A stretch of 64,000 nucleotides of DNA. It comes from Hemileia vastatrix. Its lineage: Eukaryota; Basidiomycota; Pucciniomycetes; Pucciniales; Zaghouaniaceae. The first letter of the stretch is position 1. Each line of letters begins with the position of its first letter. The position numbers and the translations under genes were made by a program. This document shows, in pieces, positions 7,472-37,200 of this stretch. A model generated the notes under the pieces. The model saw only the letters and a list, made by a program, of their open reading frames with translations, ran no database searches and was not told the DNA's origin. The stretch covers positions 24,153,683-24,217,682 of the forward strand of contig JASXTE010000002.1 in assembly GCA_030280995.1 (NCBI GenBank), read 5' to 3'.

Positions 7472-7671
7472 TTTATTTCTCCACTCTTAAATTTGCATAA
7501 TTCATTGATAACTTACTTATCTCCCCTTGATTACTTCAACCATCATCTTCAAATTTCATCCTCACCACCAAAGTTCCTTCTCAACAAAATTTCAACTTTA
7601 TCACCACCTTCATCATTTATTTAAAATATCTAGCTTCTACCTGAGAATTAGGAGCCAGATACTAAGTTCCT

Positions 7672-8056
7672 TGCTTAATTTCAAATCATTGCCTCCCTAG
7701 AAGAACTTCCTGTGATCTCTGCAGGCTAAAGAAATTTAAATGTATCTGTACTATAATTACTTCCAGAACCAATGTCTACACAGGCCCAGGAGCTTTTCCT
7801 GATCCAACCATACCCAAAAAGAGATTATAAAAAATTCCATTTTTCTTCAGAAACATTAAGGCCAAAACAGCTTTATCCTCCAAAAAACTTAAACCTGATC
7901 TTCAGCTACCACACTTTTCTCACTATCCTAATCCAATTATTCCAGTTTCTCCTTTCAGTTTTTCTGAAACTTTATTTCCTGGCTCAAAAGGTTTGTCCCT
8001 TTTTTAATATCAATTTATCCACCTCACTGAATTATCCATCCCTTTTACTATAAGCC
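7672..8056 (+). pseudogene. Antisense zinc-cluster frame a1 of Gy-2 (remnant)
   Basis: This lies on the plus strand, opposite to Gy-2 gag-pol, close to the 3' LTR. At 7711-7743 it encodes CDLCRLKKFKC, a perfect C-x2-C-x6-C half-site very close to the CDICRLKKLKC of yeast Gal4 (recalled from memory). The other half-site is degenerate: Cys codons at 7672-7674 and 7690-7692 precede it, with stops further upstream. Downstream is Pro/Lys-rich sequence; an open frame with ATG at 7772 continues to 8053 in a different phase and may be a shifted remnant. The equivalent spot in Gy-4 (25560-25960, minus) carries a fuller version. The role, if once functional, would be DNA binding (inference). Confidence 0.55.
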
Positions 8057-9353: not shown

Positions 9354-10450
9354 ATGTCTGCAGCCAAATTTTATGCTTCTCCAGATCAAGCTTGCAACTA
9401 CTGTTCATTCACCAATAGAGACTGTGTTTTAACATTCAAATTCAAAAGACACACCTATAATAGAACTTTCTCCATCTTCTTTGAAACAAAGAGAAGATGT
9501 TCTGTCCTCAAATATGGCTCCTTAACTATACCTGCCACCAGATTTGCTTCCTTCTGCAAGCCTTTTCCTCAACCTACAACTTCTCCTTCAATTCCTATCA
9601 GCAATCCTGCTCCATTTAGCCTTTTATACTACCTCAACATTCCTTCTGATTCAAACTCCAAGGAACCTTTCCAACCAATTTCTACTTCAGATGTTCCTTC
9701 TCTTCAATCTAGGCTTGCTAGTGATCCTCATAGGACTTTAACTTTACCTAGGGCTATGTCCAATCCTCCTTCAACAAACTCAGTCCTAGAGATTTCTTCA
9801 TCTCCATCAATTTATTATCTTAGTCCTGTTAGAAGCCCATATAATAAAAGACCCAGATCAAACAGCCTTAACCCCTCTAAAACTCTTCTAACAATCCAAA
9901 AAAAAAATTTCTAGCTCCTGCTCTCCACCTCCAAATAATATCCACACCTTCTATTAAAAATACTAATACCAAATAATATGGTTTTAAAAATTAAAAAACC
10001 ACTCCTCCTTCCTTCTCAAGGAAAAACATTTACCCAGTCAGCCATTAAACTCCTGTCTTAACAGTGTGGATTCTGGTAATTTCCTTTTGAAAATTTTTCT
10101 AATATGCTTCATTCTTGATTGTTATTAATGCTATTGTTAAGACTTTTCTGGCTCTTCCTGTCCATATTCAGATTATCATTTTCCAGATCCAGCTCCTTCA
10201 ATCGCTTATTTTCCCAATCATGTAATCAGCAGCAAACTTTACCCTTCTTTTAACAACATTTTGACACATTATAGAAGCTACCTTCCAAAAGACAGAGCAG
10301 AGGCCTATTTGAGAGAGAAATTTATGAGAGACCAATTTAAAATAGCTAAATTTCTCCAAAACCATTGAAATAACCCAATTGAATCAGCCAAAATTATTCA
10401 AATCCTCTTTCTTCAAATTTATAAAATAAAGCTTCTTCTTCAAAATATAT
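9354..10450 (+). pseudogene. Antisense zinc-cluster frame a2 of Gy-2
   Basis: An ATG at 9354 opens 186 codons on the strand opposite to gag-pol. Residues 14-24 form C-x2-C-x6-C (9393-9425). Fourteen residues later (9468-9500) comes a second half-site in which the first two Cys codons read TTC (Phe) and the last is intact; in Gy-4 the same positions are Cys. A Ser/Pro-rich region follows, ending at a stop at 9912. In another frame, 10291-10368 encodes a charged block (AEAYLREKFMRDQFKIAKFL) resembling the C-terminal block of the Gy-4 copy at about 23380-23430, so the gene was longer and is now frameshifted. The family assignment rests on cysteine spacing; I know of no named relative. Confidence 0.65.
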
Positions 10451-10550
10451 GCTTCCTTGATTGATCCGTATTTTTCTCAATGATTTTTCTAACCTGGGTA
10501 ATCCCAGAATTTATAAAAAATTTAAACAGAAAAAAAATCTAAATACAATA

Positions 10551-10640
10551 TTATTACTATTATTACTCATTATACTTTATTTTATTTTATTTATTTTTAT
10601 TATTTTATTTTATTTTATTTTATTATTTTGTTATTAATTT
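10551..10640. repeat. AT-rich microsatellite (TTATT/TTTTA)
   Basis: Simple repeats of ATT, TTTTA and TTATT. It lies just past the end of a2 and before the pol end of Gy-2, the same place where Gy-4 carries a long TAA tract. Confidence 0.8.
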
Positions 10641-10656
10641 TTTTTTTCATATATTT

Positions 10657-10917
10657 CACTACGCAATATAGGGGGTGGACTTGCTAGCAAGTCCTCAACC
10701 TGAACTCAGATGGAACTCAGATGGAACTCAGACTGAACTCATACTGAACCCATACTGAACTCTACTTGAACACCCACCTAAAACTGTTCTGCTGAGTGGT
10801 GTTCATCCCTGATTGAATGGTTCCTTTATCAATAGCTCAATGTGTGTTCAATCTATGGTGAGTTTGGGTCCAAGGTTGCGGACTTGCTAGCAAGTCTGCC
10901 CCCCATATTGTGTGGTG
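10657..10917. mobile_element. CACTA-type MITE, 261 bp, copy 1 (TSD TTT)
   Basis: Terminal inverted repeats of about 44 bp start CACTACGCAATATAGGGG and end with the complement of CACCACACAATATGGGG. Each contains the 18 bp palindrome GGACTTGCTAGCAAGTCC (intact at 10677-10694; last bases changed at the right end). Subterminal repeats of the type GAACTCAGAYTGAACTC follow the left repeat. The flanks are TTT on both sides. The twin at 55932-56192 has the same length. There is no coding capacity, so it would need a transposase supplied in trans. Confidence 0.85.
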
Positions 10918-14079: not shown

Positions 14080-15138
14080 TGTGGTCTTCAAAAATTGGCA
14101 GAGGCCTTTGTTGGTCTATTTGGCATTGTTTTGATATGTCTTAAATGACATTGTTTAATAATTGGGTGTTCTTCTGGATTAATTCAGCAAATATTGGGAC
14201 TTAGGAGATGTGGGTACTACCATTAGATAGCCCAAGGTTTTATCTATATTTTATGTCATGATGAAATTTTTTTATATTTTAAGTATTAAGGGGTCATTTC
14301 TTCATTTTTTATTTAAAAAGATAGCTGTTTAATTTTGTTTTTTGTGTTTTACAGGCTAACCTTAAGTCTTTGGGTTAAGTGCTTAGTACCGTTAGAATGA
14401 GCTAATTTTTCTCTACATTTTATGTCACATTGTTGTTATAGTCTAATTATGTGTTTTAAAGGTATTAGTAGTTGTAGTAGATGTTTCTAAGTATTTTGGG
14501 CTTTTTTGGAGGGTTTTGGTGGTTTTCTGACTTCAGGGAGGTCTGGCCGCTTCTAGGCAGGCCACTCACCTAGGTGCTAGAAGGTTGGAAGTGTTTCTAG
14601 AGGAGTGTTATGCAATTTGGCACTCAAGAATGCCAAATTTGTTGGTGTGCATAGGCTCTTTGAGGGTGCTCTGTGTGTATATACTAAATAAGACAGTTTG
14701 GGGCAACTTTAATTATCATACAACCATCTGGAGGTGATATAATTGTTCTCACTCAGTTTTCACTGTTTTTTGGCCACAATTGGCTGTGTTTGTTGCAAGG
14801 TTAGTTCTTCATTTAACTCAACTTTGGCAACTGGTTTCTCTGGTATAGCTTTGTAACCTGCATCAAGTATTTTTTCTTTTTTCTGTGCAACAAGTGCACA
14901 GTGTTTTGTTTTTCTGGTGTGGATCTTTCTGCATTTCAGGTTTCTGGCTCTTTGGCTCTCAGTGGTCTGCTATTGGCTACTGTCTTGACTTGTAAAGCAG
15001 TCAAGAAGTGTGTTGGAAGGGGTATTGTAACAGTCTCTAATTTGCTTTAGCTAATAAATCTCACATGGTATTTTCTCTCCAGTTTTACTCCAACTCCATC
15101 GGTCAAGGCCTATAGATAATACTTTAGGATTGTATACA
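14080..15138 (+). repeat. Gy-4 5' LTR
   Basis: It starts TGTGGTCTTCAAAA and ends TTGTATACA. A TATA-like GTGTATATACTAAATAAG lies near 14678 and matches 26632 in the 3' copy. Ends follow TG...CA. Confidence 0.85.
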
Positions 15139-15142
15139 TTTC

Positions 15143-15160
15143 TGGTGCCCAAAGTGGGGT
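15143..15160 (+). other. Gy-4 primer-binding site, tRNA-Lys type
   Basis: TGGTGCCCAAAGTGGGGT four bases after the LTR resembles the lysine-tRNA primer site known from other retroelements (TGGCGCCCAACGTGGGGC, recalled) with few mismatches. Gy-1 has a related site at 44275. Confidence 0.65.
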
Positions 15161-15245
15161 GAGGATTTGTTATCTTTTTGGATTTTCTGATACTTTTGGA
15201 CTCTCTTCTGTGGTTGGAAATTGGGTTTATGGAATCTATTGGAAA

Positions 15246-16583
15246 ATGGCTTCTGGACCCTCTTTCTCCAGTGGTGGTAGTGGAACCATTGGTACTGCTG
15301 AGGATGATATTCCTCCTGTTTCTGTTAGTCCTTTAGTCAGGATCAAGTCCTGGAAGGGGCCTATGTTTATGGGGGAGGATGTGAAGTTGTTTCTGTAGCT
15401 TTTTGAGGCTTCTGGGAATGTAGATAAGGCTTCTCACATGAGAATGGTGAAGCAAGTCATCTTTTACATTGGTGAGAGGTCTTTGGTGAAGGAATTTGCT
15501 GACATGGAGGGTTATAGGAGGAAAGATTGGAAGAAGTTGTGTCTGCAGATGACAGACAAGTGGTAACCCAGGTAATCTATGGTGGATCTCAATATAATTG
15601 CTAGTGAATGGAAATCTTATGGAGGTGTGGATAACCTCCACACTTATAGGAAGTTTCTGGCTCAGTTGGAGCCAGTGGTAGATTATTTGGTGGATATGCA
15701 GGAGTTGGAGAATACTGACTCTGCAAGGGATATTTTCTGGTATGCTATGGTCAGGAATCTTAGGATTGATGTGTTAAAGGAGTTAGAAAGGAAGGATAAA
15801 ATAAAGATTCTTCCTAATGGGAATCAGAAATTTCCTGCTCTTTCTGTGGTGAAGGAGTTTGTAGAGAATCATCTGAAACTTTTGGCAGTGGATTCTTTCC
15901 AGGAAGCTAGCACTAAGTATGTTAGCAAGGTCAGTGAATCTTTTTCTGAAGATGTGGATGAATCTAGGAAGAAGGAAAGTGTAAAAAAGGGGAAGGCTCC
16001 TGAGAAGCTTAAAGAGGTTGACCCTGTGGTGGAGCAGTTGGCTGATCTGACAAAACAGCTACATATTTATGTTCAGGAGGCTCAGAAGGCCAATAAGGCT
16101 CTTTCTCAGCATAGAGATTGTGATAAGAGGGTTGGTAGGAGTGATCCTTGGGTCTGATCTTATTGCAGCATGAAGGGCTACAAGTCCAATGATTGTTGGG
16201 CACTGAATAGGGATGTGTCTGAAGGGAAGGTGGAATTTTATGGGAAAGTGTTCAAGTTCCCAGATGCTTATTTTGTGAATCCTAATGATGGTCAGGCTCC
16301 AGTGGACTTGGTGAGGAGGAGACATAATGTCAACTCAAGGAGGCCAAGGTTTGAAGAGTTGCCTAATGAGGCTTCTTCTTCTGGTAAAGGTGGAGATGAT
16401 GTCAAGGGCAAGGGAAAGGAGGCTAATAGGGTCTCATTAACATCTTCTTTTGGTGGTTTGGAGTTGTATTCTTGTGGTGGAAAGTCAAGTGGGGAATTCT
16501 TGGAAGGTGTTTATGATGTAGAAGCAGGAAAGGTGGGAAGGCCTAAGAGCAGTTCTCATTCCCAACCAAAGCCTAAAGTTTAA
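15246..16583 (+). pseudogene. Gy-4 gag
   Basis: Begins MASGPSFSSGGSGTIG at 15246. Stops at 15396 and 15564-15572 break the N-terminal half; 15579-16157 is open and gives VDLNIIASEWKSYGGVDNL and acidic helical sequence. At 16155-16196 lies a C-x2-C-x4-H-x4-C zinc knuckle in which the first Cys codon is TGA and the His reads Tyr (TAC), both explicable as damage. The C-terminal part to 16583 is basic and Gly/Ser-rich. Gy-1 carries a parallel sequence at 44403-45900. Gag would form the particle and bind RNA. Confidence 0.75.
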
Positions 16584-17692
16584 AAAGTTGATCTTAAGCT
16601 GAGTGCAGCTAGGAAGAATTACAGCAAAGAGGAGCTTTACAAAATGCAGAAGGGTATGGCAAATATGGGCCCCCCTAGTCTTGGAGCATTGGGAATGAAC
16701 GGTGAGAAAATGCCTATGGATGTTGATTCTGACTCTGAGGAGGATTTCCCTTTGGCTTCATTTCAAAAGCCTGCTGGATTTAGAGGTTCTGGGGAGGGAT
16801 CTGGTTTGATTCCTGTTGATGGTAAATCTGTTGGTGGTTCTGGTCCTCAAGAATCTTCTAGGACCAAGGCAGTGAAGCAAAGAGCTCACTTTGAGAGGCC
16901 AGTGGTTTCTGGTAAAGTTAATGTTATAGACTCTTCTGAAAAGGATGAATCAGGGTCAGGTTTCCCTTACTTATTGGGAGTTTTATGCTATCAGTCCTGG
17001 GTTGGCTGATAGGCAGAAAAAGTTGTTGACCAGGAGAAGGGTTTCTTCTGGGGAGGTATAATACATTTGTGATTCTTCTGAAAAATTTGTAGAGGGGTTG
17101 GAAACTCACTTCTCTGCACCTCTGGGTTATGTCAATGTCACTCTCAATGGCAGGGAGGCTAGGGAATTGGTGGATTCAGGTTCCCAGATTAACCTGATTT
17201 CTTTGTTTGAGGCTACTCATCTGGGCCTCCCCATCAAGACAGGTATTGGTGGAAATTTAAGAGGGATTGGTGGTCTTGTCACTGAATTGGTTGAATCATC
17301 TGAATTTTTGAAGTTAGATGTTGATGAAGCCTCAGTGAAGGTTCATTTTTACATTTCAAAAGGCACTCTTAAAGCTGTTTTTGGTGGGCCATTCTTGATG
17401 GATTTTGAAGCATGAATTGGTTATAAGCTTAATGTGGGACTCAGTTTGATTTTGACTGGTGAAGATGAAAGGAGACTTCACATGAGGTTATCATCTCCTG
17501 GAGAGGATGGTTGGGAGACCAGGCCTGGTTTGTCTTCAATGTGCCAGTGCATGGATTGTTGTAGGAGAAGAAAACAAGTTGGTGCTGCCTCTGGTTTTTT
17601 GGAGGGGGGCTCAGGCTCTAGTGGGAGTCTGTCTTTTTAGAGTGGTACAGGCTGATCACCCAAGTGCTACAATCTCTCCCCAAGATGAGTAA
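16584..17692 (+). pseudogene. Gy-4 protease region
   Basis: 16644-17009 is an acidic linker with DVDSDSEEDFPLASF. 17098-17415 is an open retropepsin-like domain with the active-site motif LVDSGSQINLIS (17169-17204) and the closing VFGGPFLMDFEA. A stop at 17413 interrupts the join to KLNVGLSLILTGED. Cys-rich MCQCMDCC follows near 17540. The protease matures gag-pol. Confidence 0.8.
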
Positions 17693-18669
17693 ATCCCATT
17701 TTTTAGTAGGTCAGCTCTCTTGGAGATATACCAAGTTGATTTTCAACTTTCTCATTTTAATTTTTCTCTTTTCTGAAAGTATTTTTCATGTTTTTTATCA
17801 AGCATCTGTTACTCTCAAAATTTTCTATTATTTTTAATTCAAGTTCAAAAAAAAAAGATTGGGTATATATCTTTGTTGAAAGATATGTGGAAAAGCTGTG
17901 GAGTGTTGATATTGGGATCTAAAATAAGTCCTCCCAATCATGCACCACTAGGGTTTCATCTATGCCTTTCAAAATAACTACCTTGGCCATGTCTGTGAGC
18001 ATTTGGGATACCACTGGTTATTTTTGTAGGATAGAAGAAAACTTAAGAAAGGAAAATAAAAATTTCAAGATAACTGAAGAAAATCAAGAAAAAAATCTGA
18101 ACATAATAAAGAAAGAAGAAAAGAAAAATTTTTGTGAAGATCAGCAAGATCAATTTTTGGGCCTCTAGCATGAGGTTAAACTGCACAAAATTTTGAAGAA
18201 AGAAGATCATCAAGATCAATTTTTGGGCCTCTGGAATGAGGATAAACTTCAAAAATTTAGAAGATGTGATTCAGAAGATGAATCAAGATTTGAAGATTTA
18301 GAAGATGGAAGCGAGGATGAAGATGTGGAATTGCAGAAAATTTTTGGAGTGGTGAGATTGGGGAATAAAAAAAAGTCCTACTAATAGTGCACTCCTAGGG
18401 TTTCTTCTACACCTTTTAAAAAGATTACCTTGGACACACATATGAGCAATGGGGGAACCCTTGGTTTTTGTTCCAAGTCTGGTGGTGAAGATGTACTGAA
18501 GATCCCTCAAGTTGAAGGTGGAGCTGCAAAGTATAAGAAGGTAGCGCAGAAGATAAGGCCTGTCAATGAGCCTATACCTGTAGGATTGAACCCTCCTTTG
18601 AATAGACCACCTTTTTCAAGAGATCCGTACTGTACTCCTCTTGTGAAGAATCCTCCGGATTTTTTGTAA
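17693..18669 (+). pseudogene. Gy-4 protease-RT linker with internal duplication
   Basis: Lys/Glu-rich linker. The segment around 18140-18250 is a tandem duplication of about 65 bp: both copies contain GATCAATTTTTGGGCCTCT and end in ATGAGG(T/A)TAAACT, encoding HEVKL and NEDKL. Further on, 18430-18669 reads PVNEPIPVGLNPPLNRPPF, which matches Gy-1 at 47640-47690 and leads into RT. Several stops. Confidence 0.65.
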
Positions 18670-19769
18670 ACTGCTAGGGTGACTGTGGAAAGGTTGAAAG
18701 TTGTTAATTTTGGTCCTGATGGGTGTTTCTCTGATGAGGAAAAGAAGTTGTTGTTGCACATTATTTTGCTGAGGGAGAAAGTGGTGGAAATTTTTTGAGG
18801 AAGAAAGGGGTGTGTTGAAACAATATTATGGGGAACCTTACTTGATTCCTGTGGTTTGTCATGAACCTTGGAAAATTAAACCTATTCTGATTCTAGCTTC
18901 TATAAGGGATGATTTTGGTAGAGATTGTTAGGGAAAGAGTCAGGAATGGTTTATAAAAACAATCAAAATCTAGCTACTCAAGTCCGGTTTTCTGTGTAAA
19001 GAAGCACAATGGGAAGCGGAGGGTGGTGCATGATCTTAGAGCCTTGAATAGAGTCACTATCAAGGATGCAGGGTTGCTGCCAAGTGCAGAAGAGTTTGTG
19101 GAAGATTTTTCTAGAAGGGTGTGTTATGGTTTGGGAGATATTATGGGTGGTTATGATGAAAGGGAACCTCACAGGGATTCACGGCCACTTATAATGTTCT
19201 AGACTCCTCTGAAAAGATTTCAGCTCAATAGGTTGCCTCAAGAAGAAACTGATTCAGTAGCAGTATATCAAGCACAAATGGATTGGATTTTACAGGATGA
19301 GGTTCCAAATAATGCTGGTATTTTTAATGATGATGGTGGAATCAAAGGACCCTCCACTGATTATGGAAATGTGGTGCTGAAGGAGAACCCAGGTATAAGG
19401 AGATTTGTTTGGGAATATGCAATTACTCTAGAGAGAGTATTGTTTAGGATTGAAGAGGCTGGTTTGACCATTTCCGGGTCAAAGTTTTGTTGTTGTGTTC
19501 CTGCTTTGGAAATTCTGGGTCATGTTGTATGTAAGGAGGGAAAGATTATGGCAAATATGAAAGTTAATAAAATTCAGTTATGGCCAAGGCCCAAAAATAC
19601 TACTGAAGTCAGGGGATTTTTAGGGGTTTGTGTGTACATCAGCATTTTTATTAAAGATTTTTCTTTGTTGGCTTCACCTTTGAGGAAGTTGACCAGGAAG
19701 GACACAGAGTGGGTATGGACTGAAGAGTGTGATGAGGCTTTTCAGAAGTTTTATAAAGGTGGTAGGTGA
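18670..19769 (+). pseudogene. Gy-4 reverse transcriptase
   Basis: The early part (18676-19230) is shifted several times but shows VVHDLRALNRVTIKDAGLLP and RVCYGLGDIMGGYDE. From 19233 an open stretch has YQAQMDWILQDEVPNNAGIF, then NDDGGIKGP at 19326, where most relatives have IDDGGIKGP; both catalytic Asp are kept. NPGIRRFVWEYA and EVRGFLGVCVY with KLTRKD follow. This variant RT core is one I associate with basidiomycete Ty3/gypsy elements. Confidence 0.85.
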
Positions 19770-20217
19770 AGATATTATTCTTCACAAGCTGGATTATGGT
19801 GTTGGTTCTGGAAGAGTTTATCTGGAAGTGGAGTCAAGTTATATTGCTTCTGGTGCTTTTTTGTCTCAGGATGATAAAACTGAGAGGTTCAGGCCAGTAA
19901 AGTATGAGTCAGTGGTATTTAATGAGGTTGAATCTAGGTACTTTCAACCTAAGTTGCAATTTTTCAGTGTAGCAAAAATTTTGAAGAAGCTGCAAACTGT
20001 TTTTTGGGGGAAGCATTTTGAGCTTCAGGTGGATGAAAAATCTCTGGTTCAAATGATCAATAAACCTAGTATTCAAAATGCTTCAATGGCCAGGAGGGTG
20101 GCATTTATTCAGCATTTTTCTTTTTACCTGGTAAACACTCCTGGAAAAACTTTTATGATGCCTGATGGATTATTAAGGAGACCACCACCCACAGATGAAG
20201 ATTCAGACTCTGAATAA
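19729..20217 (+). pseudogene. Gy-4 RNase H
   Basis: An open frame of 162 codons, shifted relative to RT. Motifs in order are YLEVESSYIASGAFLSQ (an Asp of the usual VDSS reads Glu), FNEVESRYFQPKLQ, LQVDEKSLVQMI and FMMPDGLLRRPP, and it closes with DEDSDSE. The enzyme degrades the RNA template during reverse transcription. Confidence 0.8.
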
Positions 20218-21871
20218 TTTTATGAAGATGTTCCAGTTTTAGGGCCAGCACAAAGGGTGCTGAAGATTTTTATTTCCTCCCCCATGAGGCTAAACTGGAT
20301 GATTATTCTCTCCTCCACCAAGAGGTTAAACTGGCTTGTTCGGATCTTCATTCTGGTTGTCAGGATACTTTTGTTGATGAATATGGGGCTGTCGTTTGGG
20401 ATGTCTCAAAATTGGAGAATTTTTTTTTGTTGGTTAACTGGTTTCTCTAAATATTCACTGGAAGAAAAAGGATATACCAAAATCAAGGGATTGGTGTCCT
20501 GGATGGGATGGTTGTGTTTCTCATGTGTACACTGGTTATTTTGATTATAGGGTTGTACCCTTGGATGTTTTTTTTGTTAAATTTCAAAGATGAGACCTGG
20601 GGTCAGACTGGGTTTTATTTTATTATGGTTGAATATCTGTTAAATTTGGAGAGGCCAGATATTTGTGATGATGATACTTCGATGGCAATTAGGAAGAATA
20701 GTCCTGGCTTCTATGTTTCAGGAAGGAGGTTGAGGAGGAGTATACATCCAAATCTACAAGTAGTAGTGACTCAGAAAATGGGTCAAGAGTTGGTGTTGAA
20801 GTCTTTGCATGAAGACCTTGGTCATAGAAGCTTTGGGGAGACATATAGAAGAAGAGTAGCAGACAGAGTTTTGTGACCAGGTATGAAGTTGGCTGTGCAG
20901 GGTTGGGTTCAATCTTGTGAAGAATGTCAAAGAAGAAGTCGCTTGAAACCTAAAAATGTTGGCCGTGCTACTGGTGAATCAGCTGTGTTTTGAAGAGTCA
21001 GTTTGAATGCTGTCTGTATAAATGAGGGCAGTTATAAATACTTGATTGTTGCCAGGGATAATTTGTCTGGTTGGGTCAAGGCAGTGCCTCTGGCTAATTT
21101 GACTGCCAAAAATGTGGTAGAATGTTTGAAGAAGGAATGGGTGTTTAGGTATGGGTTGATGAAGTTAGTGACTTTTGATTGTGGGCTAGAGTTTGGAGCT
21201 AAATTTTAAGAAGCTGTGGAAAGTATTGGTTCTAAAGTTAGAGTGGCTACACTTTATTATCCTATAGCTGAAGACATGGTTGAAAGAGGCCATCAAGTTA
21301 TCAAGAATGCTTTGATGAAGATGTGTGGAGATAGTGCTGAAAAGTGGAGGCATTATTTACCCTTAATATTATTTTCTGATAGGATCACTGTGAAAAGGAC
21401 AACTAGCTATTCCCCTTATGAATTAATGTTTGGGCAGAAAGCTGTTCTACCAGTGGATTTGGAAGCTGTCTCTTATCTTGGAATTGATTGGGATGATGTG
21501 TTCTCAACAGAAAATTTGCTCTGTGCCAGGATGTAACAGTTGGAATGTAGAGAGGAATTTTAAGAGAAGGCATACTCTAGAATGATGAAGATAAGTAATC
21601 AATAAGTCAGGTACTGGGACAAGAAGTTGGCTCATAGACTCAGGAATCCCTTGAAACCTGGTTGTTTGGTTTTGGTGTATGTTAGAAGCTTGGAGAGTCA
21701 TTGGGGAAAGAGGTTTGCTGACAGATGGAATGGACCTTAGAGAGTCAGATCACAGGTGTCTGGAGGTTCTTATGTTTTGGAGGATTTAGATGGCACAGTC
21801 TTGAAGAAGAGAGTTGCTGCTGATCAGGTTAAGAGATTTTTCCCAAGAGGCACTAGAGGTGAAGAAGATTG
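20218..21871 (+). pseudogene. Gy-4 integrase
   Basis: After a linker with two GAGG(C/T)TAAACTGG motifs (20287, 20323), 20508-20876 leads to the zinc site LHEDLGHRSFGETY and CEECQRRS near 20920. The core has LNAVCINEG (first Asp reads Asn), VTFDCGLEF (second Asp) and DMVERGHQVIKNA (Glu). 21216-21536 gives RTTSYSPYELMFGQKAVLP, and the C-terminal part shows YVRSLESHWGKRFADRW. Stops at 21207, 21534 and others. No chromodomain is seen. The last codons read NEDKLW at about 21875. Confidence 0.85.
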
Positions 21872-22975
21872 ACTTTGAAATGAGGATAAACTATGGAACA
21901 TTCTTTAAATTTTAGATTATGGTGATGCTGTGCATCTGTTTTGTTGGAAAAAAATTTTTTTTAGAAGGTACCCGTGGGTGGGGCTTCTAGATCTTATTTT
22001 GGCAAGTGTAGGGGTAACTGATGAGCTGGCTGCTCTGTAGAACAGTTACCCCAGATTGTCTGTTTACAACCCCTTCTCTTAATTTGGTTGAACCCCAGAA
22101 TTGGTTTCTCTTCATAGGTTTTAGTCCTCTATGACTTTAAACTGGAAATTCTTTTGGTTTTTAAGTGCTGGACTCTTCATGCTTATTGGTTTTGGTATAT
22201 GTGGTTGAATGTCTTGTTTTTGTTAGAAGGTACCCAGAGGGGACTTCTAGATTTTATTTTGGAAATTGTGGGGGTTACTGATGAGCTGGAAGCTCTGTAG
22301 AACAGTTACTCCATGACTGTTTAAAGTATTTTGTTTGTCCTAGTTGAATCCTAGTTCTGTTTTTTATGCAGGTTTCAAGTACACTATGACTTTAAACTGG
22401 CTTTCTGGTACAGGACTGGCTTCTTTGGTTTTGATGGTGGATCACTGGTGGTCTCCCATAATTTTTAATTATTGGAGGGAGCCCACCCATTGATCTTTTC
22501 CTTTGACAGCACTTTCTATGGAGCCAGACTTTTATTTTTCTTTTCTTAAATTTCTGTGTCTAGGGTTGTGTTAGATGGTAGTTTTATATTTTTTCTTTTT
22601 TTTTTCTTTTAATTTTTTATGGAGGCTATTAGGATATAAAGGAGGAAAAATCACAAATTATATTATAAGGTGTTAGCACATCAGGGTCACCTGGATGATA
22701 TTATTTTTCTTAATTTATTTTTTTATCTAAATTCAATTAAAAATCATTTAAAGGTGTATCCACATCAAGTTGCACTTGGATGTAGGTAAGCTATCAGGGG
22801 ATCAGCTGATCAATTTTATGGGGGATACAATTTTTAGTTATTATTTATCTCGTTTTATTATTATTATTCATATCATTTTAATTTTTCAGCTCTCATATTT
22901 TTTGGGTAATTTTGTTTAATTATTTTCAAGTTTTTTTTAGTATGTTAGTAGCTTAAATAAAAATAAAAAATAAAA

Positions 22976-23051
<76 letters not shown>

Positions 23052-23157
23052 TAAAATAAAAAATAAAAATAAAAATAAAATAAATTTATATATATATATA
23101 TATGTTAATTATTATTTTTCTCTCTATTTAGTGAATTGTTAATTTCTTTTTTTAATT
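21872..23157. other. Gy-4 spacer between convergent pol and a2
   Basis: Non-coding. It holds two copies of a block with GGGG(T)AACTGATGAGCTGG...CTCTGTAGAACAGTTAC (about 22013 and 22270; a third copy at 25113), each followed by a TATGACTTTAAACTGG motif (22132, 22386). A GGAGGGAGCCCACC block is at 22474. From 22955 to 23105 there is a simple TAA/TAAAA/TA tract. Confidence 0.65.
22955..23105. repeat. TAA microsatellite with AT tail
   Basis: About two dozen TAA units near 22976-23048 flanked by TAAAA variants and TATATA. It sits about 50 bp from the end of antisense frame a2. Confidence 0.9.
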
Positions 23158-24663
23158 TTAATTTCTGGAAGAAGAAGCCTCCGGCGGTTGGTCTGGATTA
23201 TGGTGGCATTTTTGCTTTTTATTAGGATTGGAGGAAGGACTGTGTTCTTTGTGATGTAGGTGGCTGGAAAGCCTATATGGGTTGTAATGGTCAGGGACCA
23301 GATTAGAAGGTAATTTTTTGGAAGAAGTGGAGGAAGCAGGGATAGAGTGCTGGAAGGTGTGCTTGATTATTCTAGACATCTTCCAGTGGTCATCAAGGAG
23401 CTGTTTACTCAGATTCTTTTCAAACTCATTCAATGGACCGTGAAGAGCAAAGGCCTTAAGCATGTTACAACACATCATTCTTAGGTGTTATTTCATGTCA
23501 ATCTAATCCAGCGCTAAGGTAGTTTAAAGAGGTTGGCCAATCTCGATTGCAGTTTAAGGAGGTGGGGTTCCCACTACACAGAAGAATTGGATCATTAATT
23601 GTTCTCTGTTAAAGAAATTGGATTTATTAATTTGGTACTTACAGATTGGGAGCTCATCAAATTTGTAAGTGTCTGGGATTTGAGCTGTTGAAGAATTCTA
23701 AATGCATGTTGTAGGAGGATCAACCAGATGGAGGTATGGATTCTCATGATCATTCTCTATATGGTTTTGGGAAGATGGACTAGAAGGAGGGGATTCCTGT
23801 GGCCTTGTTGGAGCAGTAGGGCTGCTGTTATTGTTGTTGATATTATTGCTTGGCCCGGTTGGGTTTGATACTGGTGGTGGAGTGACAGGGTTGTTGTAGG
23901 ATGGGCCAGGAGAAGGTGACCTGGAAGCTGATTGGGATCTTCTGGATGAAGATCTGGAAGAAATGGATTTTCAGAGGAGAGGTGTAGATAACTCTTTTTT
24001 ATTGATAGGGGGAATTTAGTTTGGGAGCAGTGTTGGGTGCTCTGGTTCCTTCTTGAGGTCCTTTTGCAGGTCTTCTAGAAGTTTTAGAGTTTTTGGTATT
24101 TTTTGATGAAAAATTTGTTGTGCACATTGCTCTGGGAGCCCTAGGAGGTTGTTTCATAGAGTTATTGTTGTTTATTGATGGATTTTAGCTTTTTTTCTGC
24201 TGGAATTTGGTGGTTTTGAGCCTGATTACTGCTCCCTAGGGAGGCGGGCAGGCCACCTGGATGCGCTCTAGAAGCCTGGGAGCTGATTTTGAAGCTGTTT
24301 TAACCGGATTTGCAAAAATAAAGGCTTTTTCTTGGGATGATAAAGCAGGTCTTTTGGAGAGAGTTCTGGGGGCAGAGCCGTGTGATCTTCTGCATTGAGC
24401 ACAAGATAAGAAAGAGGAAGCAGGACCTATTTCTGGGGATATGATAGGAGATCTAAAGGTGTCTTTGTGTGAATGTGAAGGTGGTGGTATAGGATATTTG
24501 GGGTCTCTGTTGCACTTTTTCTTTTTGGAGTTGCAAGAATCACAGGCCCTGTTATAGAGTTGGGCTTCAGGAGTTGGAAGAGTGAAAGTGCAAGGTCTGT
24601 ACATGTGGATACAATTTTTGCAAGCATAGTCCTTGGGAGAAGTGAAGCAAGGAAGTTCTGATG
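23158..24663 (-). pseudogene. Antisense zinc-cluster gene a2 of Gy-4
   Basis: About 500 codons on the strand opposite to gag-pol. The upstream part (24663-24236) contains two half-sites, C-x2-C-x6-C at 24622-24590 and again at 24544-24512 (CDSCNSKKKKC), separated by 15 residues: a complete six-cysteine Zn2Cys6 arrangement, followed by a further CAQC near 24395. The middle is Ser/Arg/Pro/Asn-rich (SRSSSRRSQSASRSPSPGPS near 23940). The end (23478-23158) has an amphipathic block, FEKNLSKQLLDDHWKMSRII. Only one frame change (near 23985) is needed; six or more in-frame stops are mostly TAA/TAG. The start is unclear: the codon aligned with the ATG of Gy-2 a2 is lost. Likely a DNA-binding regulator by family; the target is unknown. 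Confidence 0.7.
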
Positions 24664-24841
24664 GGTGAAAATCTGGGGATCCAGTTATTATCTGTGATGG
24701 ACAACAATGAAGAGAAAAGATATAAAAAAAAATTTTTATAAGTGTTCTGTAGATGATGAAGAAAAAGTGGAAGTTCAGTAGGGTGGTTGCAGAGTGTTGT
24801 GCATGGAATTGGCTCTGTCTTTTTTATGTAAAGTGTGAATA

Positions 24842-25045
24842 GTCCGTCAAGACTTTAAACTGAACACTGTGGTAAGTCCGTCAAGACTTTCAACTGACAA
24901 CTGTGGTAAGTCTGTCAAGACTTTAAACTGAACACTGTGGTCAGTTCATCAAGACTTTAAACTGAAGAATGGTGGAGTCCCTCAAGACTATAAACTGAGG
25001 TTGTGTTGATGGTTGAGTCCTTCAGGACTATAAACTGATAATTTG
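24842..25045 (+). repeat. 34 bp tandem array with TAAACTG core, upstream of a2
   Basis: Units GTCCGTCAAGACTTTAAACT begin at 24842, 24876, 24910, 24944, 24977 and 25016, so the period is 34 bp for the first four. Three looser units (GTCCCCCAAGACTAAAAACT type) lie at 25228-25310. The array is 180-380 bp upstream of the a2 coding region on its promoter side. Confidence 0.85.
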
Positions 25046-25559
25046 ATGATGGTTTAATTCTGGAAGAGGGCATCCAAAGGGGTAGTCTCTGAATTTAGTT
25101 AAGGCAAGTGTGGGGGTAACTGATGAGTTGGCTTCTCTGTAGAACAGTTACCCCAGAATTTTATTTTTATTTATTAGGCCTTTAACAGTTTTATCTCTGG
25201 TTCTGGCTTTATGATTTAGGTTTTGAGTCCCCCAAGACTAAAAACTGAGGGTTTTTGAGTCCCCCAAGACTACAAAATTGGGGCTGTTATTCCCCCAAGA
25301 CTTTTAACTGAGTAAATTTTTAAGTATTTTATTTCTTATTAAAGAATTTCAGGCAAGAATCAATTACAGAAGAGAATCAAGAGTTGAAACAAATTTTTCA
25401 GCATTAGTATTGAACTGGTGGATTAGGTGTCTTCTTTTCTCAATCTCCTGTGGATCTTTGGCAGGAGTGGATTGGAAGTAGTTTAGAATAATATGTTTTT
25501 ATTGAGAAGAGTGTTTTTGGAATTTTTCCTTGATGGTGGGAAATTGATTGTGTGGTGTT

Positions 25560-25960
25560 GTTTCAATGGTTCACACATTGTCATCATCACTGTCTGAATG
25601 GGAATGAACTGGTAATTCATCAGCTTAAATTACAGTATGGAGAAGCATTGGTTTTACCATCAGATGGACAAGGTATGGTAGAGATAGTGGTTGTGGTGGT
25701 GTTGGAATTCTTTTTGGAAGGGTGTGACTTGTTGATTAATCTGGGTATCAAGATGGAAGGCCTGAATCTTTTGGTTTTGCTGCAAGATGGACCAGGTTGA
25801 GGGGAAGGGAAATCTGTTGCAGATGATAATGGACCAGGTCTGGAGAAAGATTTCTTTCTGGAATAGCAGGCATCACAGGCAGATATGTATGGATGAATTG
25901 GGGGTGTTATGATACAGATGATGTTTTATTCAATACAGTATTGACAGGGACCCATTTCAG
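25560..25960 (-). pseudogene. Antisense zinc-cluster gene a1 of Gy-4
   Basis: On the minus strand, 25946-25914 encodes C-x2-C-x6-C with one internal TAA where Gln would fit. Twelve residues later, 25877-25845 encodes CDACYSRKKS followed by Phe (TTC) in place of the sixth Cys. Together this is a Zn2Cys6 pattern (C-x2-C-x6-C-x12-C-x2-C-x6) with a damaged last ligand. Downstream is Ser/Thr/Pro-rich with basic KKNSNTTTTT, ending near 25600. It lies only about 80 bp from the 3' LTR, so its promoter may lie in or next to the LTR. The same position in Gy-2 (7672-8056) holds a counterpart. Confidence 0.65.
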
Positions 25961-26023
25961 AGATGTATTTTGAAAAATGTGTGAACATGGTTGTTTTGGT
26001 GAAGTAGAATGTGGACATTCTCA

Positions 26024-26036
26024 ATTGGAGGGAGGA
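26024..26036 (+). other. Gy-4 polypurine tract
   Basis: ATTGGAGGGAGGA lies directly before the 3' LTR start TGTTGTCTTCC, almost identical to the Gy-2 tract. Confidence 0.8.
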
Positions 26037-27116
26037 TGTTGTCTTCCAACATTGGAAGAGGCCTTTGTTGATCTATTTGGCGTTGTTTTGATATGTCTTA
26101 AATGACATTGTTTAATAATTAAGTGTTTTTCTGGATTAATTCAGCGAATATTGGGACTGCAGGAATGTGGGTACTACCATTAGATAGCCCCAGTTTTTCA
26201 CTATATTTTATGTCATGATGAAATTTATTTTATATTTTAAGTATTAAGGGGTCATTTCCTCATTTTTTATTTAAAAAGATAGCTGTTTAATTTTGTTTTT
26301 TGTGTTTTACAGGCTAACCTTAAGTCTTAGGGTTAAATGCTTAGTACCGTTAGAATGAGATAATTTTTCTCTACATTTTATGTCACAATGTTTTTATAAT
26401 CTAATTATGTGTTTTAAAGGTATTAGTAGTTGTAGTAGATGTTTCTAAGTATTTTGGGCTTTTTTGGAGGGTTTTGGTGGTTTTCTGACTTCAGGGAGGT
26501 CTGGCCGCTTCTAGGAAGGCCACCCACCTTGGTGCTAGAAGGTTGGAAGCGTTTCTAGAGGAGTGTTATGCAATTTGGCACTCGAGAATTCCAAATTTGT
26601 TGGTGTGCATGGGCTCTTAGAGGGTGGTCTGTGTGTATATACTGAATAAGACAATTTGGGGCAACTTTAATTATCATAAAACCATCTGGAGGTGATATCA
26701 TTGTTCTCACTCAGTTTTCACTGTTTTTTGGCCACAATTGGCTGTGTTTGTTGCAAGGTTAGTTCTTCATTTAACTCAACTTTGGAAACTGTTTTCTCTG
26801 GTTTAGCTTTGTAACCTGCATCAAGTATTTTTGCTGTTTTCTGTGCAACAAGTGCACAGTGTTTTTTTTACTGGTGTGGATCTTTCTGCATTTCAGGTTT
26901 CTGGTTCTTTGGCTCTCAGTGGTTTTCTATTGGCTACTGTCTTGACTTGTAAATCAGTCAGGAAGTGTGTTGGAAGGGGTATTGTAACAGTCTCTAATTT
27001 TCTGTAGCAAATAATTCTCACCAGGTATTTTCTCAAAGGGACAGGGGTTTTTCTTTCCAGTTTTACTCCAACTCCCTTAGTCAAGGCTTATAGCTTGTAC
27101 TATAGCATTGTCTACA
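26037..27116 (+). repeat. Gy-4 3' LTR
   Basis: Matches 14080-15138 over its length and ends TTGTCTACA. It carries an extra 20 bp near 27035 (AAAGGGACAGGGG stretch). The next base to the right is Co-3 RNase H. Confidence 0.85.
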
Positions 27117-32013: not shown

Positions 32014-33279
32014 TGTCAGCCTGGCTATACCAGGAGCCCTGTAAATGATATGTTGATTTATTGGACCTGAAAGAGGGCGTAAGAATTGCATTTGATGTAT
32101 ATAAATTAATATTTTATTGCATAAGAAAATTATATAAGTATCTTATTAAATATAAGTGTTATATTAAGTTTATTGTTATATAAATTATTTATACATTTAA
32201 ATTAAGCATAATATATTTTATATTCTACAAATATTGACGCATTTTTATGTATTTAATAAATATAAATTAATAATTAAACAATTAAAAACATATATTATAA
32301 TTATATGTGTAAAATTGACTTATAATGAAATTAAATTAATTAATTAAATTTATATATTAAATAAAACTTTTCATATATTATTAAACAATAATATTGGGCG
32401 CTTTTTTGACCCTTAATTGTTTCAGGAAAATTATTAAATAAATTATAACACTTATTTAATAACATAGTATTAAAATCCCCACTTTAAATTACAAATATCA
32501 TTAAATTAATTATATGTTTCATTTAAACTAATTATTGAATTAATTACATATTTAAAACAATTAATTAAAATTGCTTCAAACTGGATTGAATTGGTTACAT
32601 GAATTTTTTGGTGTGAAAATAATTCTATTTGTTTTACTTAAACCCTTTACATGTCACTATAATGTCTGTTTTGGATTATTTTACTCACTGTTCTCATGTT
32701 TTAAACTTACTTGGTTACTAATTATCTTAATTAAGTGTTTTTGGGAAATTATGGTGGTAAAATTAGTTACTTACTCAAGGGTTTAGTTGACTGTTTCATG
32801 TTTTTCTCTCAGTCTCCATGTTCTAGTTCTATTCTTTTAATGTCCAGTTTCATTGTATTCCTTTTTTGTGCTTACCACATTGAGATGCTTCAGAGGATCC
32901 TTTGCCTATAAAAGGTTTTGGATTATCCCCTGTAGCTGCATCATTATTTTACACTCAACTCAAATCCATTTTATTACATTTATTATATTTTTATTAACAT
33001 TAGTAATCTAATTTAAAAAAAAGTATATAAATATTCCCAGGTTGGCTTAAGTCTAATAATAATTATAACTGTTTTCCACGCATTGAAAATAATTACTAGT
33101 TAAATAAATATATTATAATTTAAAACCCTTAAAATTGTGTCAAGTCCCAAGGAAACCTCGTCGCCTTCTCTTTTAAAATACTTATACTACTTTATTACTT
33201 TATTCCTTTATACTACCTTGTCTTCCTCCTCTCTTTTTTTCTTCATCTTCTTCTCCTTTTTCTAGAAGACCGGCCGACA
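32014..33279 (+). repeat. Gy-5 5' LTR
   Basis: 1266 bp starting TGTCAGCCTGGCTATACC. A TATA box CCTATAAAAGG is at 32905-32915, about 370 bp before the LTR end. Pyrimidine-rich CTTC repeats lie near the 3' end and differ in number from the 3' copy. Confidence 0.9.
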
Positions 33280-33946
33280 ATTGAGAGCCTTTCCAAATGA
33301 CGACAACAAATGACATAACGCACGGACCACCCAAACCAAAAAAGTAAAAGTTTGCCGCGGCCATGTTTCAAACTTGGGTTCTATTGTTTTGGTTTGAATT
33401 ATTTTGAAGTGATTTTGCGATCACTATAGTAAGTTGACCTTTGCACCTCTCACTCATATTATTATATTTTTACTGCAATAACAGTGTTTGTGACTTAATT
33501 GCTGATTCACTGAGTGTAAGTTTTCTTTATATTAAATTTTTTATTATTATTTTCCTAGTTGACCATAATAGAGTAACACTCTTAGTCCTAGAAGACAATT
33601 AATTTTTAATGAATTATTTAAATAATTTTATTAAATCTTTTTTGTTTATTGGTTGACCATAATAGTACTCAGTACTTAGTCCCAATATTATCATCATATT
33701 AATTTTTGGTATTAATTATTTTGGTTGAATTACAAAACCTTTTTTGGTTGTTCCCCTTTTAATTATTTTTAATTCTTAATAAATAATTGTAATTACATTT
33801 ATTTGTATTACATTTTTTATTAATTAATTGATTTTTGATAAAAATTTAATTTTTTTTTGTTTTGTTAAAAATTCAATAAATTATATTTTATTTTGAATTA
33901 ACAATTTGAATCATTAAATAATATTGATTCTATTTTCACAGTTTAA
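33280..33946 (+). other. Gy-5 leader between LTR and first ORF
   Basis: 667 bp without a long frame. It begins ATTGAGAGCCTTTCC, which does not start with TGG, so the primer is unclear. Two GTTGACC(A/T) blocks recur (33435, 33560, 33652). Confidence 0.5.
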
Positions 33947-34591
33947 ATGTCCAGTAGTTTGGCTAACAGCATGGATAACTTACATGTGGATAAGATTGAA
34001 GTGAATGTTGACACTGAATCTGTAGGTTCTTCTAAATTAACTTACAAAAATTATTCAGCTGACAAAAAACCTTCAGGACGTGGAAATGGCAGGAGAAGTG
34101 GCAAACCCCCCTCACCAAACACCTCTGAAAGAAGTAAAACCTCTAATAAATCAGGAAAATCAACTCAAAGGTATAAAAATAAAAAAGATACCTCTAACCT
34201 AACAAGTAAACAATCTGTCCAGTCACATCAAAGAACTAAATCAGAAATCATGAAGTACAAGGCAAGGGTAGACACACTCTGGCAGCAGATGCAGGAGTTA
34301 TTAAATCCCAAACAGGCTCAACCTCCTCATTTCCAAGCCTCCCAGCCTCAGCCTCAACCTCAGCCCAATCAGGTACCCAGCTCCTTCACGCAAAATCAAA
34401 GCACTCTGCAGGTGGAGCAGTGGAAATGGGATTACTTGATGAGCCATTACCAACAGAATGTTCAGAAACCAAAAGCTCAACATCCAGTCCCATCTAGGAC
34501 ACCAACCTACCATCCATCTCCCCAGCCCCATCCTTATCAGGGAGGCAGAAGAAAGAAGGCACAGGGGAAGCTTCCTCCCTTGCCATGGTGA
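33947..34591 (+). CDS. Gy-5 upstream ORF, basic Pro/Gln-rich protein
   Basis: Intact 214-codon frame. The N-terminal half is Ser/Lys/Gly-rich and basic (GRGNGRRSGKPPSP near residues 46-59), with one helical segment (IMKYKARVDTLWQQMQELL near residues 101-119), then Pro/Gln-rich sequence (QPQPQPQPNQ) and a basic end GGRRKKAQGK. Its stop overlaps the next ATG as ATGGTGA (34585-34591), so the following gag frame could be reached by re-initiation or a -1 shift. I do not recognise a family; it may be an N-terminal extension of gag. Confidence 0.65.
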   Translation: MSSSLANSMDNLHVDKIEVNVDTESVGSSKLTYKNYSADKKPSGRGNGRRSGKPPSPNTSERSKTSNKSGKSTQRYKNKKDTSNLTSKQSVQSHQRTKSEIMKYKARVDTLWQQMQELLNPKQAQPPHFQASQPQPQPQPNQVPSSFTQNQSTLQVEQWKWDYLMSHYQQNVQKPKAQHPVPSRTPTYHPSPQPHPYQGGRRKKAQGKLPPLPW

Positions 34592-36473
34592 GTAATTTTT
34601 TTGATAAACATGTTGGTATGTATAATAACAAATATTCTTCAGGTAATATTGTGGATCCTGGTGAAAGAACAGTTAAACCCTTAAAAAGACAACTTCCTTT
34701 AATAAGTAGCCCCAATGATGTAATTAGCAAATTATCATTTGATGAAACTTTACCTTTAACTTCTACTTCTTTAATTAACCCTTCTCTTGCAATTGAGAAT
34801 TATTCTGTTTCCCCTGAATTCTATACGTTAATTGAGAAAACTTCTGAAGAAATATTTAAAGATACACTTGATTTTAATGTTGTGAAAGATAAACATTTGA
34901 GAGACATGTTAATACATGAGAGTGATAGATTTAATCATTTGCATTTACATTGCAAAGGGAGCTCTTCTGTTCAAGACACTGATTATTTTAAATTGAAAGA
35001 CACATTAAATAATATCCTTGCTCAACAAAAGTCTATTAAATCTGATCACAGATCACTTTAAGATAAATATAGTCACCTACGCAAAATTATTTATGATCTA
35101 AAAGATAAAAATACTGCTTTGAAGAATGACAATATGCTTCTGCATTGTGAATTAAGAAAATTGAAAATTGATTCTCAGAATTTGAGTAATAAATGCTCTA
35201 TAGATGAGGACCAAAATGTTCTATCTATTTCTAGGATTAATGATCAACTATCTTATATTCCTGATTTAAGAAATAAGTTATCTGATCTTGAGAACCTATT
35301 TTATGCATTAAAGGCTTTCCAAACTACTCATTATCATGAGTTAAGAAATATTGCTTAAACTTCTGTTAATCATAATAATAAACAGCCTGAACAGAGTGGT
35401 TCTTCTCTCCCTTGTAATGTACCAGTTTTACCAGCTGATATTCATTCTGAGAAATCTGTTACATCAAATAGAAGTATTTTAAATGCTCACAATGAGACAG
35501 CTACCTCTGTGAATAATGAAATATCTGAACACCTTTCAAGACTTCAAGAATTAATAACCTTGAATAATTCAAACCATAGGATGGAACATCCCAGTAACCA
35601 GAAAAATTGGCCTAAGTTGGATCAATATCCTACCTTTGATGGTGATTCTTCATCTGATTGGCAACAATTTATCCAAAGAATTGATAATTTAAAGAGATCT
35701 TATAAACTACCTGATAAGGAAACTGTTTCTAGGCTAATTTCTTTATTTTCCAATGTAGCCTTGATGTGGTATGAATCTTTTCTATTAGATAACAACCATT
35801 ATACATGGAATGATTAGAAATCCTTGATTGTGAATCAATTTGGTGATTCAAAATTTAGGTTGGCTCAGCAAAGACTGTATGAGAATACTAGATATGTATC
35901 CTCCTCTGTTGAAAAACCCATTTTTTTCTTATGAAAGTAACAAATATTCTGAGATAAATTGATCCAAAGATGGATTATGATGTTTGGAGAGATAAAATCT
36001 TGTATAAATTACCGAATTCTCTTAGAGATTAAATTGTAGCTAGAACTGAGCATGTGAGGGAACACTCTTCTTTCATTAAACTCTGTAATGAGGCACTGCT
36101 CAACCATAGATATTAACCAAAGAATTACATTGGTAAATCTTATCATGATCAAAATAAATCCTCTACAAAGCCCCCAGAAACACCTGGCAAACCCTCTGCC
36201 CCATTTACACCTAAAAAATATGCAACAAATACTTGTTATAAATGTAACAAACCATGGCAAAAGGGTCATGTTTGTGACAAGAAAGTTCATCTTGTTGAAC
36301 AAAATGAAGACACTGATGAAGCTGAAATTGATATCAATAATTCTTCTAGTGACTGTGAAAGTAATATCTCCTATGACAATGAATCTGATAAAGATGTTTT
36401 AATTTTGGAACAGGATGTCCATTATTTAGATAATATATCTCAAGAATGTGTCTTGGATTTATCTTCAGTATAA
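34585..36473 (+). pseudogene. Gy-5 gag
   Basis: 34585-35817 is one frame with in-frame stops at 35059, 35356 and 35815. The middle is probably coiled coil (LRKIIYDLKDKNTALKNDN and following, near 35080-35350). 35605-35900 matches the retrotransposon gag domain: WPKLDQYPTFDGDSSSDWQQ and LFSNVALMWYESFL. A shift in the T run near 35925 leads to the zinc box CYKCNKPWQKGHVC (36234-36275). A single TAA at 36471 separates it, in frame, from protease. Gag builds the particle. Confidence 0.8.
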
Positions 36474-37200
36474 AATTCTGAAATAATTAAAGATATTACT
36501 AAAAATTCTATAGCCATATCTCCTTTGAAGGTACCTTTTATCATTAATGGTAAAAATGTTGATGTAGTTCTTGACTCTGGTGCTGGAGGAAGTGTAGTGT
36601 CTGAAAGAGCCTTAGCTTCAGTAGATAAGGATTATTTGGGTAAATTGTTACCTATGACTTCTGAAAAATGGAGAGGGTATGGTTCTACCTTGTGTCCCAT
36701 TGGCAAATACAAAACCTCTGTATTCTTCAAATATAATGGTGGTTTTGTCAGAGCGATTTGTGAATTTTTTGTCATGAAAAATGATAATTTAAGCAATTGG
36801 TTTATTATGGGTAATGATATATCAACCATGTTTGGTGTGAAATTGGACCCTGAAAATAATTGCTTCACCTTGGGATTGAATGGCAAAATAAAATTCAAAA
36901 TTTCCTCCTCTAGAAAACCTTCTGGGCATCTTTTAAAGTCTTGTAACTCACTGATCCAGTGTAAAGGCAGACCATAAATTGAAATGGATGATTTATTAAA
37001 TGATATAAATACTGCTTCTTTTGGTGATCAGTTAACTAGTGAACAAAATGATTCTATAATTGTCTCAATTACCTCTTTCCCTATGGCTTTTGCTCATGGT
37101 TCTCATGTCTTAGGAAGTGTTCAGGAAGAAATGAAAATTACCTTATCCTGTAACTTGAGTGATATTCATCCTAGTCTTAAAAAAACCTTATCCTGCTTCT
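36474..37200 (+). pseudogene. Gy-5 protease
   Basis: The open frame 36525-36977 gives VPFIINGKNVDVVLDSGAGG (active-site DSG near 36573) and NWFIMGNDISTMFGV. A TAA at 36975 is followed in the same frame by 36984-37223, which runs into RT; a run of A near 37180 shifts the frame. The domain is otherwise intact. Confidence 0.85.

Follow-up and report, generated by a model that had tools for sequence, protein, structure and literature searches.

Does a retrotransposon carry, on the strand opposite to its gag and pol genes, regulators of its own expression? This question is raised by a 64-kb stretch of the genome of the rust fungus Hemileia vastatrix (contig JASXTE010000002.1, positions 24,153,683 to 24,217,682; hereafter the window), which contains Gy-4, a Ty3/gypsy-type long terminal repeat (LTR) retrotransposon with many relatives in the host assembly (747.6 Mb, 791 contigs). 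The size of the assembly, the low GC content (32%), and small introns agree with a fungal, perhaps a rust, host. Between pol and the 3' LTR of this element two antisense frames, a1 and a2, show the pattern C-x2-C-x6-C-x(12 or 15)-C-x2-C-x6-C. We found that both frames recur in many genomic copies as well as in a sister element diverged from Gy-4, and that a2 evolved under purifying selection. The two antisense genes reported in a preliminary description of this DNA are therefore present, and the existence of an antisense six-cysteine gene pair is supported; its statements on the integrity of a1 and the length of a2 proved weaker, and the family name given there needs a caveat, as the clusters look permuted and score below the family cut-off.

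Both antisense frames recur across copies and in a sister element

In the window copy of a2, all six expected codons (minus strand, at 24622, 24613, 24592, 24544, 24535, and 24514) encode cysteine, and the spacer between the half-sites comprises 15 residues, exactly as first described. This cluster is the sole complete six-cysteine motif in the six frames of the window, and when the window was shuffled 1541 times in 2-kb blocks with dinucleotides preserved, no complete motif appeared. The region between pol and the LTR of Gy-4 contains three half-sites, versus 0.10 expected, and the corresponding region of a second (sister) element contains two, versus 0.04 expected. For a1, the reported spacer of 12 residues is right, but the window copy has a stop within the first half-site and phenylalanine in place of the sixth cysteine (5 of 6 cysteines present).

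Searches of the host genome yielded 3338 first-look candidates for a2 DNA (40 scored, 86–89% identity to the window copy) and 2661 for a1 DNA (40 scored, 90–92% identity). Nine a1 matches, the window copy included, pair with a2 matches at a distance of 1.2–1.6 kb, and an integrase was located on the opposite strand at the expected distance in all five Gy-4-type copies fetched. Among 29 other a2 copies, cysteine is retained at sites 1–6 in 19, 29, 23, 29, 22, and 27 copies, respectively; all six residues are present in nine copies, and the region is stop-free in ten. The respective numbers for 29 other copies of a1 are 21, 25, 23, 24, 19, and 22, with the complete set in 12.

The sister element lies on the minus strand of the window, and its pol DNA is 68.8% identical to that of Gy-4 over 1316 nt. 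On its own antisense strand it bears a corresponding pair, a1' and a2', in the same order and orientation as in Gy-4 and at corresponding positions. Forty copies of this lineage were scored (mostly 71–84% identity), and the spacer of 14 residues in a2' was also observed in sister copies elsewhere in the genome. The a1' region was identified in 11 of 15 fetched stretches (ten of them span approximately 800 nt at 76–81% identity); its cysteines occupy the same six places as in a1, with the same spacer of 12, in 3, 7, 10, 11, 6, and 8 of 11 sequences, including that of the window. Profile comparison linked a2 with a2' (probability 91.8, E 7.5e-7), for which BLASTP of the window sequences gave E 0.027, suggestive at most. 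The comparison of a1 with a2 (probability 95.0, E 3.8e-8) showed that these two predicted proteins are homologous to each other. A separate observation concerns the first cysteine of the a1' cluster (window 7642–7644, loci L068–L082), at which TGA occurs in 7 of 11 sequences and a cysteine codon in 3; many sister copies therefore share a broken a1', and this TGA may reflect an inactivation common to them or something more unusual.

Selection was assessed by comparing synonymous and amino-acid changes between variants present in at least three copies (shared) and singletons; the p values treat variants as independent, and shared variants can be recurrent mutations. The Gy-4 copies differ by about 10% (mean identity 0.897), mostly through singletons gained after insertion, and the variants common to at least three copies mainly predate it. 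In a2 ORF2 (the second of the two open reading frames, ORFs, into which a2 is divided) there were 64 synonymous and 95 amino-acid shared changes (w 0.53), versus 138 and 410 among singletons (w 1.07; p = 3e-4), and the shared variants were distributed over the three codon positions as 46/38/77. The same direction was observed for a2 ORF1 (shared 21/32, w 0.59; singletons 46/147, w 1.25; p = 0.036) and for positions 10338–10944 of the sister element (shared 33/49, w 0.44; singletons 39/159, w 1.20; p = 5e-4). In the remaining two antisense frames of each region w was at least 1.18, and singletons in the antisense frames look neutral. The constraint was strongest in the carboxyl domain of a2, with w of 0.37 and 0.40 within 23316–23675 (180-nt windows, variants in at least two copies).

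These results show that a2 evolved under purifying selection. The preliminary description had named a lack of conserved frames or cysteine positions in other copies, or neutral evolution, as what would speak against it; the frames and cysteines recur and the shared variants are constrained, so neither applies to a2. Chance or base composition as the source of a2 is ruled out by the shuffles together with the codon-position bias. In placement, conservation across copies, and selection, this antisense frame agrees with what is expected of an antisense accessory ORF.

Gene structure and family assignment of the zinc clusters

The start codon of a2 (ATG at 24688) is present in 28 of 30 copies, the window copy having ATA, and an in-frame stop precedes it at 24826, also in 28 of 30. 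ORF2 is the longest antisense stretch that is stop-free in the majority of copies (24174–23160 in the frame of the window copy); its upstream extension was derived from reading single copies. The original statement that a2 continues for about 500 codons with one frame change was too generous: the window a2 also carries several stops, and small indels specific to this copy cause part of the frame change. An unusual intron, a frameshift, or two separate proteins may account for the join between ORF1 and ORF2 in Gy-4.

A single intron joining the two frames was considered and rejected, as no GT is conserved in at least 85% of copies within 24236–24360, and lowering the threshold to 60% gave only two weak candidates. 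In the sister element, cluster and linker are read in one and the same frame, and the carboxyl part follows an intron-like sequence. The candidate intron at 10076–10141 agrees plausibly with the consensus, but conservation of its sites is unremarkable, and a pattern search recovered an intron-like match in only 17 of 30 copies, with starts and lengths varying between them. The idea that the frame change in Gy-4 reflects an intron common to both elements was weakened, given that the indels of the window copy shift the frame (as judged from single copies).

For a1, a small intron of 49 nt is likely. In 29 usable of 30 copies, GT was present in 26, AG in 25, the exact length of 49 nt in 26, and a CTRAY branch site in 25. 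Per copy, the spliced frame contained 1.48 stops on average, compared with 2.24 and 6.72 for the two alternative frames and 8.90 without splicing; the frame past the intron was stop-free in 10 of 29 copies if spliced, versus none of 29 if unspliced. Of 26 copies, 18 have an in-frame stop at 26159, after which comes an ATG at 26108, within the 3' LTR (19 of 26); further in-frame ATGs lie outside the LTR at 25988 (19 of 28) and 25955 (22 of 28). The a1 gene probably begins within the 3' LTR or close beside it, and the encoded protein is probably short.

The assignment to the Zn2Cys6 family, made originally from cysteine spacing, holds as far as the two half-sites are concerned and is less certain at the level of the Pfam profile Zn_clus (PF00172, gathering cut-off 21 bits). 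The profile matched a1 in all four copies scanned (E 5.8e-4 to 5.5e-3, 17.2–20.4 bits) and cluster-bearing a2 in one of two Gy-4-type copies scanned (E 0.092); the window a2 scored 13.8 bits, and neither of two sister a2' copies was matched. All these matches remain below the cut-off, the best one reaching 20.4 bits, which weighs against family membership. Moreover, the first half-site of a1 aligns to profile positions 16–36 and the second to positions 1–15, and the second half-site of a2 likewise falls on positions 1–15 (in the matching Gy-4-type copy and in the window copy), so that the basic half, which comes first in PF00172, does not come first here. Relative to Zn_clus, the cluster halves of the predicted proteins thus look permuted. 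A swapped order of cluster halves in predicted mushroom proteins offers a possible lead.

A genome-wide search with PF00172 (3254 candidates, 150 scored) listed 13 matches, none of them at the scored a1 or a2 places. Twelve of the 13 lie below coordinate 115 kb of their contigs (C472, C511, C313, C446, C632, C698, C520, C89, C696, C738, and C104), several in long open frames, and only one lies on a 33-Mb contig (C34); the contigs with the 12 matches are possibly unplaced or foreign. Searches of viral contigs with a2, with the a1 alignment, and with the reverse transcriptase (RT) piece of another element of the window, as well as searches of prokaryote genome contigs with the a2 alignment, revealed no relative, and nothing relevant was found among solved structures.

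Structure and decay of Gy-4

The coordinates of the features are collected in Table 1. The paired LTRs of Gy-4, with TG...CA termini, and the position of RNase H before integrase agree with a Ty3/gypsy element, with the reservation that the integrase match is below its family cut-off and RT has no Pfam match. Pfam identified Asp_protease_2 at 17062–17415 (E 1.4e-5), RT_RNaseH at 19693–20217 (E 8.7e-17), and rve at 20994–21209 (E 7.2e-5, sub-threshold), and gave no match for the RT pieces at 18957–19202 and 19203–19769. With these pol domains on the plus strand and the 3' LTR behind them, the reported antisense placement of a1 and a2 is correct. Over 1082 nt the two LTRs share 92% identity (944 of 1000 positions in the best gapped block), and a purine-rich stretch lies immediately 5' of the 3' LTR; no target-site duplication was recognised around Gy-4.

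The window copy of Gy-4 is decayed. The CpG observed/expected ratio across the element (14080–27116) is 0.084, suggesting strong methylation-driven decay. GC skew of the plus strand amounts to +0.17 to +0.41 over 15–26 kb, which corresponds to a C-rich antisense strand throughout the element. Gy-4 contains three copies of a 93-bp repeat with a palindromic core (family D11), and a third element contains one (57240–57332). The window also contains another Ty3/gypsy-like element (32014–41345), with long repeats approximately 8.08 kb apart and a pol-like frame of 421 codons.

Table 1. Features of Gy-4 and the sister element (positions in the window)
Feature	Position	Strand	Basis or remark
5' LTR of Gy-4	14080..15138	+	TG...CA ends
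Decayed remnants of pol: protease, RNase H, integrase (in this order)	17062..21536	+	Pfam
Two copies of the 93-bp repeat with palindromic core (21963-22055, 22223-22315); third copy at 25065-25157	21963..22315	+	Repeat family D11
a2 ORF2, Pro/Ser-rich linker and conserved carboxyl domain	23158..24310	-	Frame other than that of ORF1, overlapping ORF1
a2 ORF1 with zinc cluster (24622-24512)	24236..24688	-	Start, upstream stop, and Cys counts across copies
Tandem repeats upstream of a2 (units of 34, 40, and 32 bp), containing directional motif AGACTTTAAACTGA	24841..25302	+	
Predicted a1 exon 2	25364..25608	-	Stop counts in spliced frame
Predicted a1 intron, 49 nt, GTAAAA...CTGAT...CAG	25609..25657	-	Splice-site conservation across copies
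a1 exon 1 with zinc cluster (25946-25845)	25658..26108	-	Cys counts across copies; candidate starts in text
3' LTR of Gy-4	26037..27116	+	TG...CA ends; first ~120 bp overlap a1 open frame
a1' cluster of sister element, spacer 12	7642..7743	+	11 sequences including window
a2' of sister element, cluster 9393-9500, spacer 14	9357..9914	+	29 other copies; profile match to a2

A possible antisense regulatory module and its alternatives

The explanation that we favour, and consider reasonably probable, is that Gy-4 and the sister lineage possess an antisense regulatory module working like the retroviral HBZ. In this scheme a1 and a2 would be two related genes opposite to the gag-pol strand, with a2 starting downstream of the tandem-repeat array and encoding the zinc cluster, the linker, and the conserved carboxyl domain. 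An antisense transcript from the 3' LTR would be translated into nuclear DNA-binding proteins, which might act on the control sequences of the element itself, i.e., the LTR and the repeated AGACTTTAAACTGA motif, and set the level of sense RNA, a mode of action comparable to that of HBZ, the spliced antisense protein of human T-cell leukemia virus type 1 (HTLV-1). Sense RNA, the template of reverse transcription, cannot lose an intron that lies on the antisense strand, and such an intron would therefore be kept through transposition.

The candidate target, a directional motif of 14 bp, clusters upstream of a2. Allowing up to two mismatches, 15 matches were found in the window (mean 1.94 and maximum 6 in 100 shuffles), of which 14 lie in elements, all in element-sense orientation: 10 in Gy-4, three in the sister, and one in the third element near 57.4 kb, with one elsewhere; since the motif was taken from the array itself, the enrichment within Gy-4 arises partly by construction. 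Most sites are located 160–620 bp upstream of a2 in Gy-4 and 140–340 bp upstream of a2' in the sister element.

Several results weigh against the proposed module. For a1 the selection test, which the original check proposed for both genes, is not significant: exon 1 gave shared changes of 14/24 (w 0.64) versus 56/140 among singletons (w 0.93; p = 0.34, not significant), and the shared changes in predicted exon 2 (3 synonymous, 19 amino-acid; w 2.09) point in the opposite direction. The zinc part of the sister a2' is borderline (57/120, w 0.78, versus 89/264, w 1.10; p = 0.10), and some sense frames mirroring a constrained antisense frame also dip (w 0.63–0.65). ORF1 and ORF2 of the Gy-4 a2 stand in different frames without a conserved GT donor, and the splice sites of the sister element are no better conserved than their surroundings (donor at the 74th and acceptor at the 54th percentile). 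Furthermore, all Gy-4 copies examined are old and mutated, the integrase was at the expected place in neither of two sister copies tested, and the motif was chosen after the array had been seen, while tandem duplication alone can multiply a motif.

A bolder version of the regulatory module, which we regard as tentative, is that a1 and a2 form a paralogous activator-repressor pair with a circularly permuted zinc cluster and its own intron, which would bind the repeats and LTRs of the element and set its copy number; this would be an undescribed variant of a DNA-binding fold present in thousands of copies.

Among the alternatives, a structural job is unlikely but survives best. The products would then be zinc-containing nucleic-acid chaperones, or packaging or nuclear-import helpers of the particle, which would suit two small, basic, cysteine-rich proteins; no zinc-knuckle match was obtained in the single gag piece scanned (15576–16157), and the part of PMC7264820 drawn on here considers that antisense ORF proteins may function in nuclear import. 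Against this stand the likeness of the clusters to a DNA-binding family (PF00172, sub-threshold E of about 6e-4) and, in both elements, the repeat array immediately upstream of the a2 gene. We find it quite improbable that the antisense RNA rather than a protein matters, with double-stranded RNA silencing the element and the frames being a by-product of strand composition. The C-rich antisense strand does favour Pro/Ser-rich open frames, and antisense RNA control is likewise discussed in that part of PMC7264820, but composition yields no six-cysteine motif in the shuffles and explains neither the codon-position bias in two lineages nor the conserved spacers. Least credible is the view of a1 and a2 as functionless passengers, i.e., host DNA (or a nested element) captured once, which would fit the decay of the window copy and a location where insertions are tolerated, but which is largely refuted for a2, since two lineages with pol about 69% identical retain the same gene order and orientation and the shared variants are under purifying selection, excluding a dead capture.

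Antisense genes in LTR elements are a known kind. Plant Tat/Retand elements and fungal Boty carry such genes between pol and the 3' LTR (PMC7264820 and PMC11963269, in the parts drawn on), in agreement with the preliminary description as regards plant Ty3/gypsy lineages. The plant cases include Grande gene23, RIRE2, and Retand with TRP28/PF04195; the antisense-gene region of Retand combines a predicted DNA-binding protein with tandem repeats (same parts of PMC11963269 and PMC7264820). The plant cases differ in that the word "zinc" occurs in neither of these two papers; no TRP28 was found in the ten proteins scanned with Pfam, and according to the part of PMC7264820 drawn on, the plant antisense ORF proteins had not been described as clearly similar to other proteins. 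The Boty-like elements of Botrytis cinerea, also fungal LTR elements, carry an extra antisense gene, brtn, between pol and the 3' LTR (PMC7264820, same part). Compared by description only, they have one antisense gene, whereas Gy-4 has a pair. Zhao 2011 (Virology 417:248) is the paper cited for the Boty-like elements with brtn.

HBZ of HTLV-1 is a spliced antisense bZIP factor encoded near the 3' LTR (PMC3185765, in the part drawn on), and the likeness of Gy-4 to it consists in an antisense gene near the 3' LTR, predicted splicing, a possible start in the LTR, and a putative DNA-binding regulator. HBZ is a single bZIP gene with proven transcription and function, whereas Gy-4 has two related zinc-cluster genes, and its module, including the spliced antisense transcript suggested by the predicted intron and by the frame reaching the LTR, is predicted from DNA; HBZ comes from an animal virus, and no homology is implied. 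With GAL4-type Zn2Cys6 proteins, a1 and a2 share the two half-sites and the sub-threshold profile matches; they differ in that the half matching profile positions 17–35 comes first and that matching 1–15 second, with spacers of 12–15. The earlier statement that no element with an antisense pair was known stands for the pair and not for antisense genes as such: no antisense zinc-cluster gene pair was found in the published literature searched (mostly freely accessible papers), and the words "antisense" and "zinc" are absent from a paper on rust transposons (PMC12210899).

The products of a1 and a2 resemble a well-studied class of fungal regulators, form a paralogous pair, and are encoded beside an array of possible targets, which opens the role of antisense retrotransposon genes to direct tests. 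Should the permuted half-sites prove to bind DNA, the principal fold of fungal transcription factors would gain a new variant, and one that is extremely numerous in a single genome.
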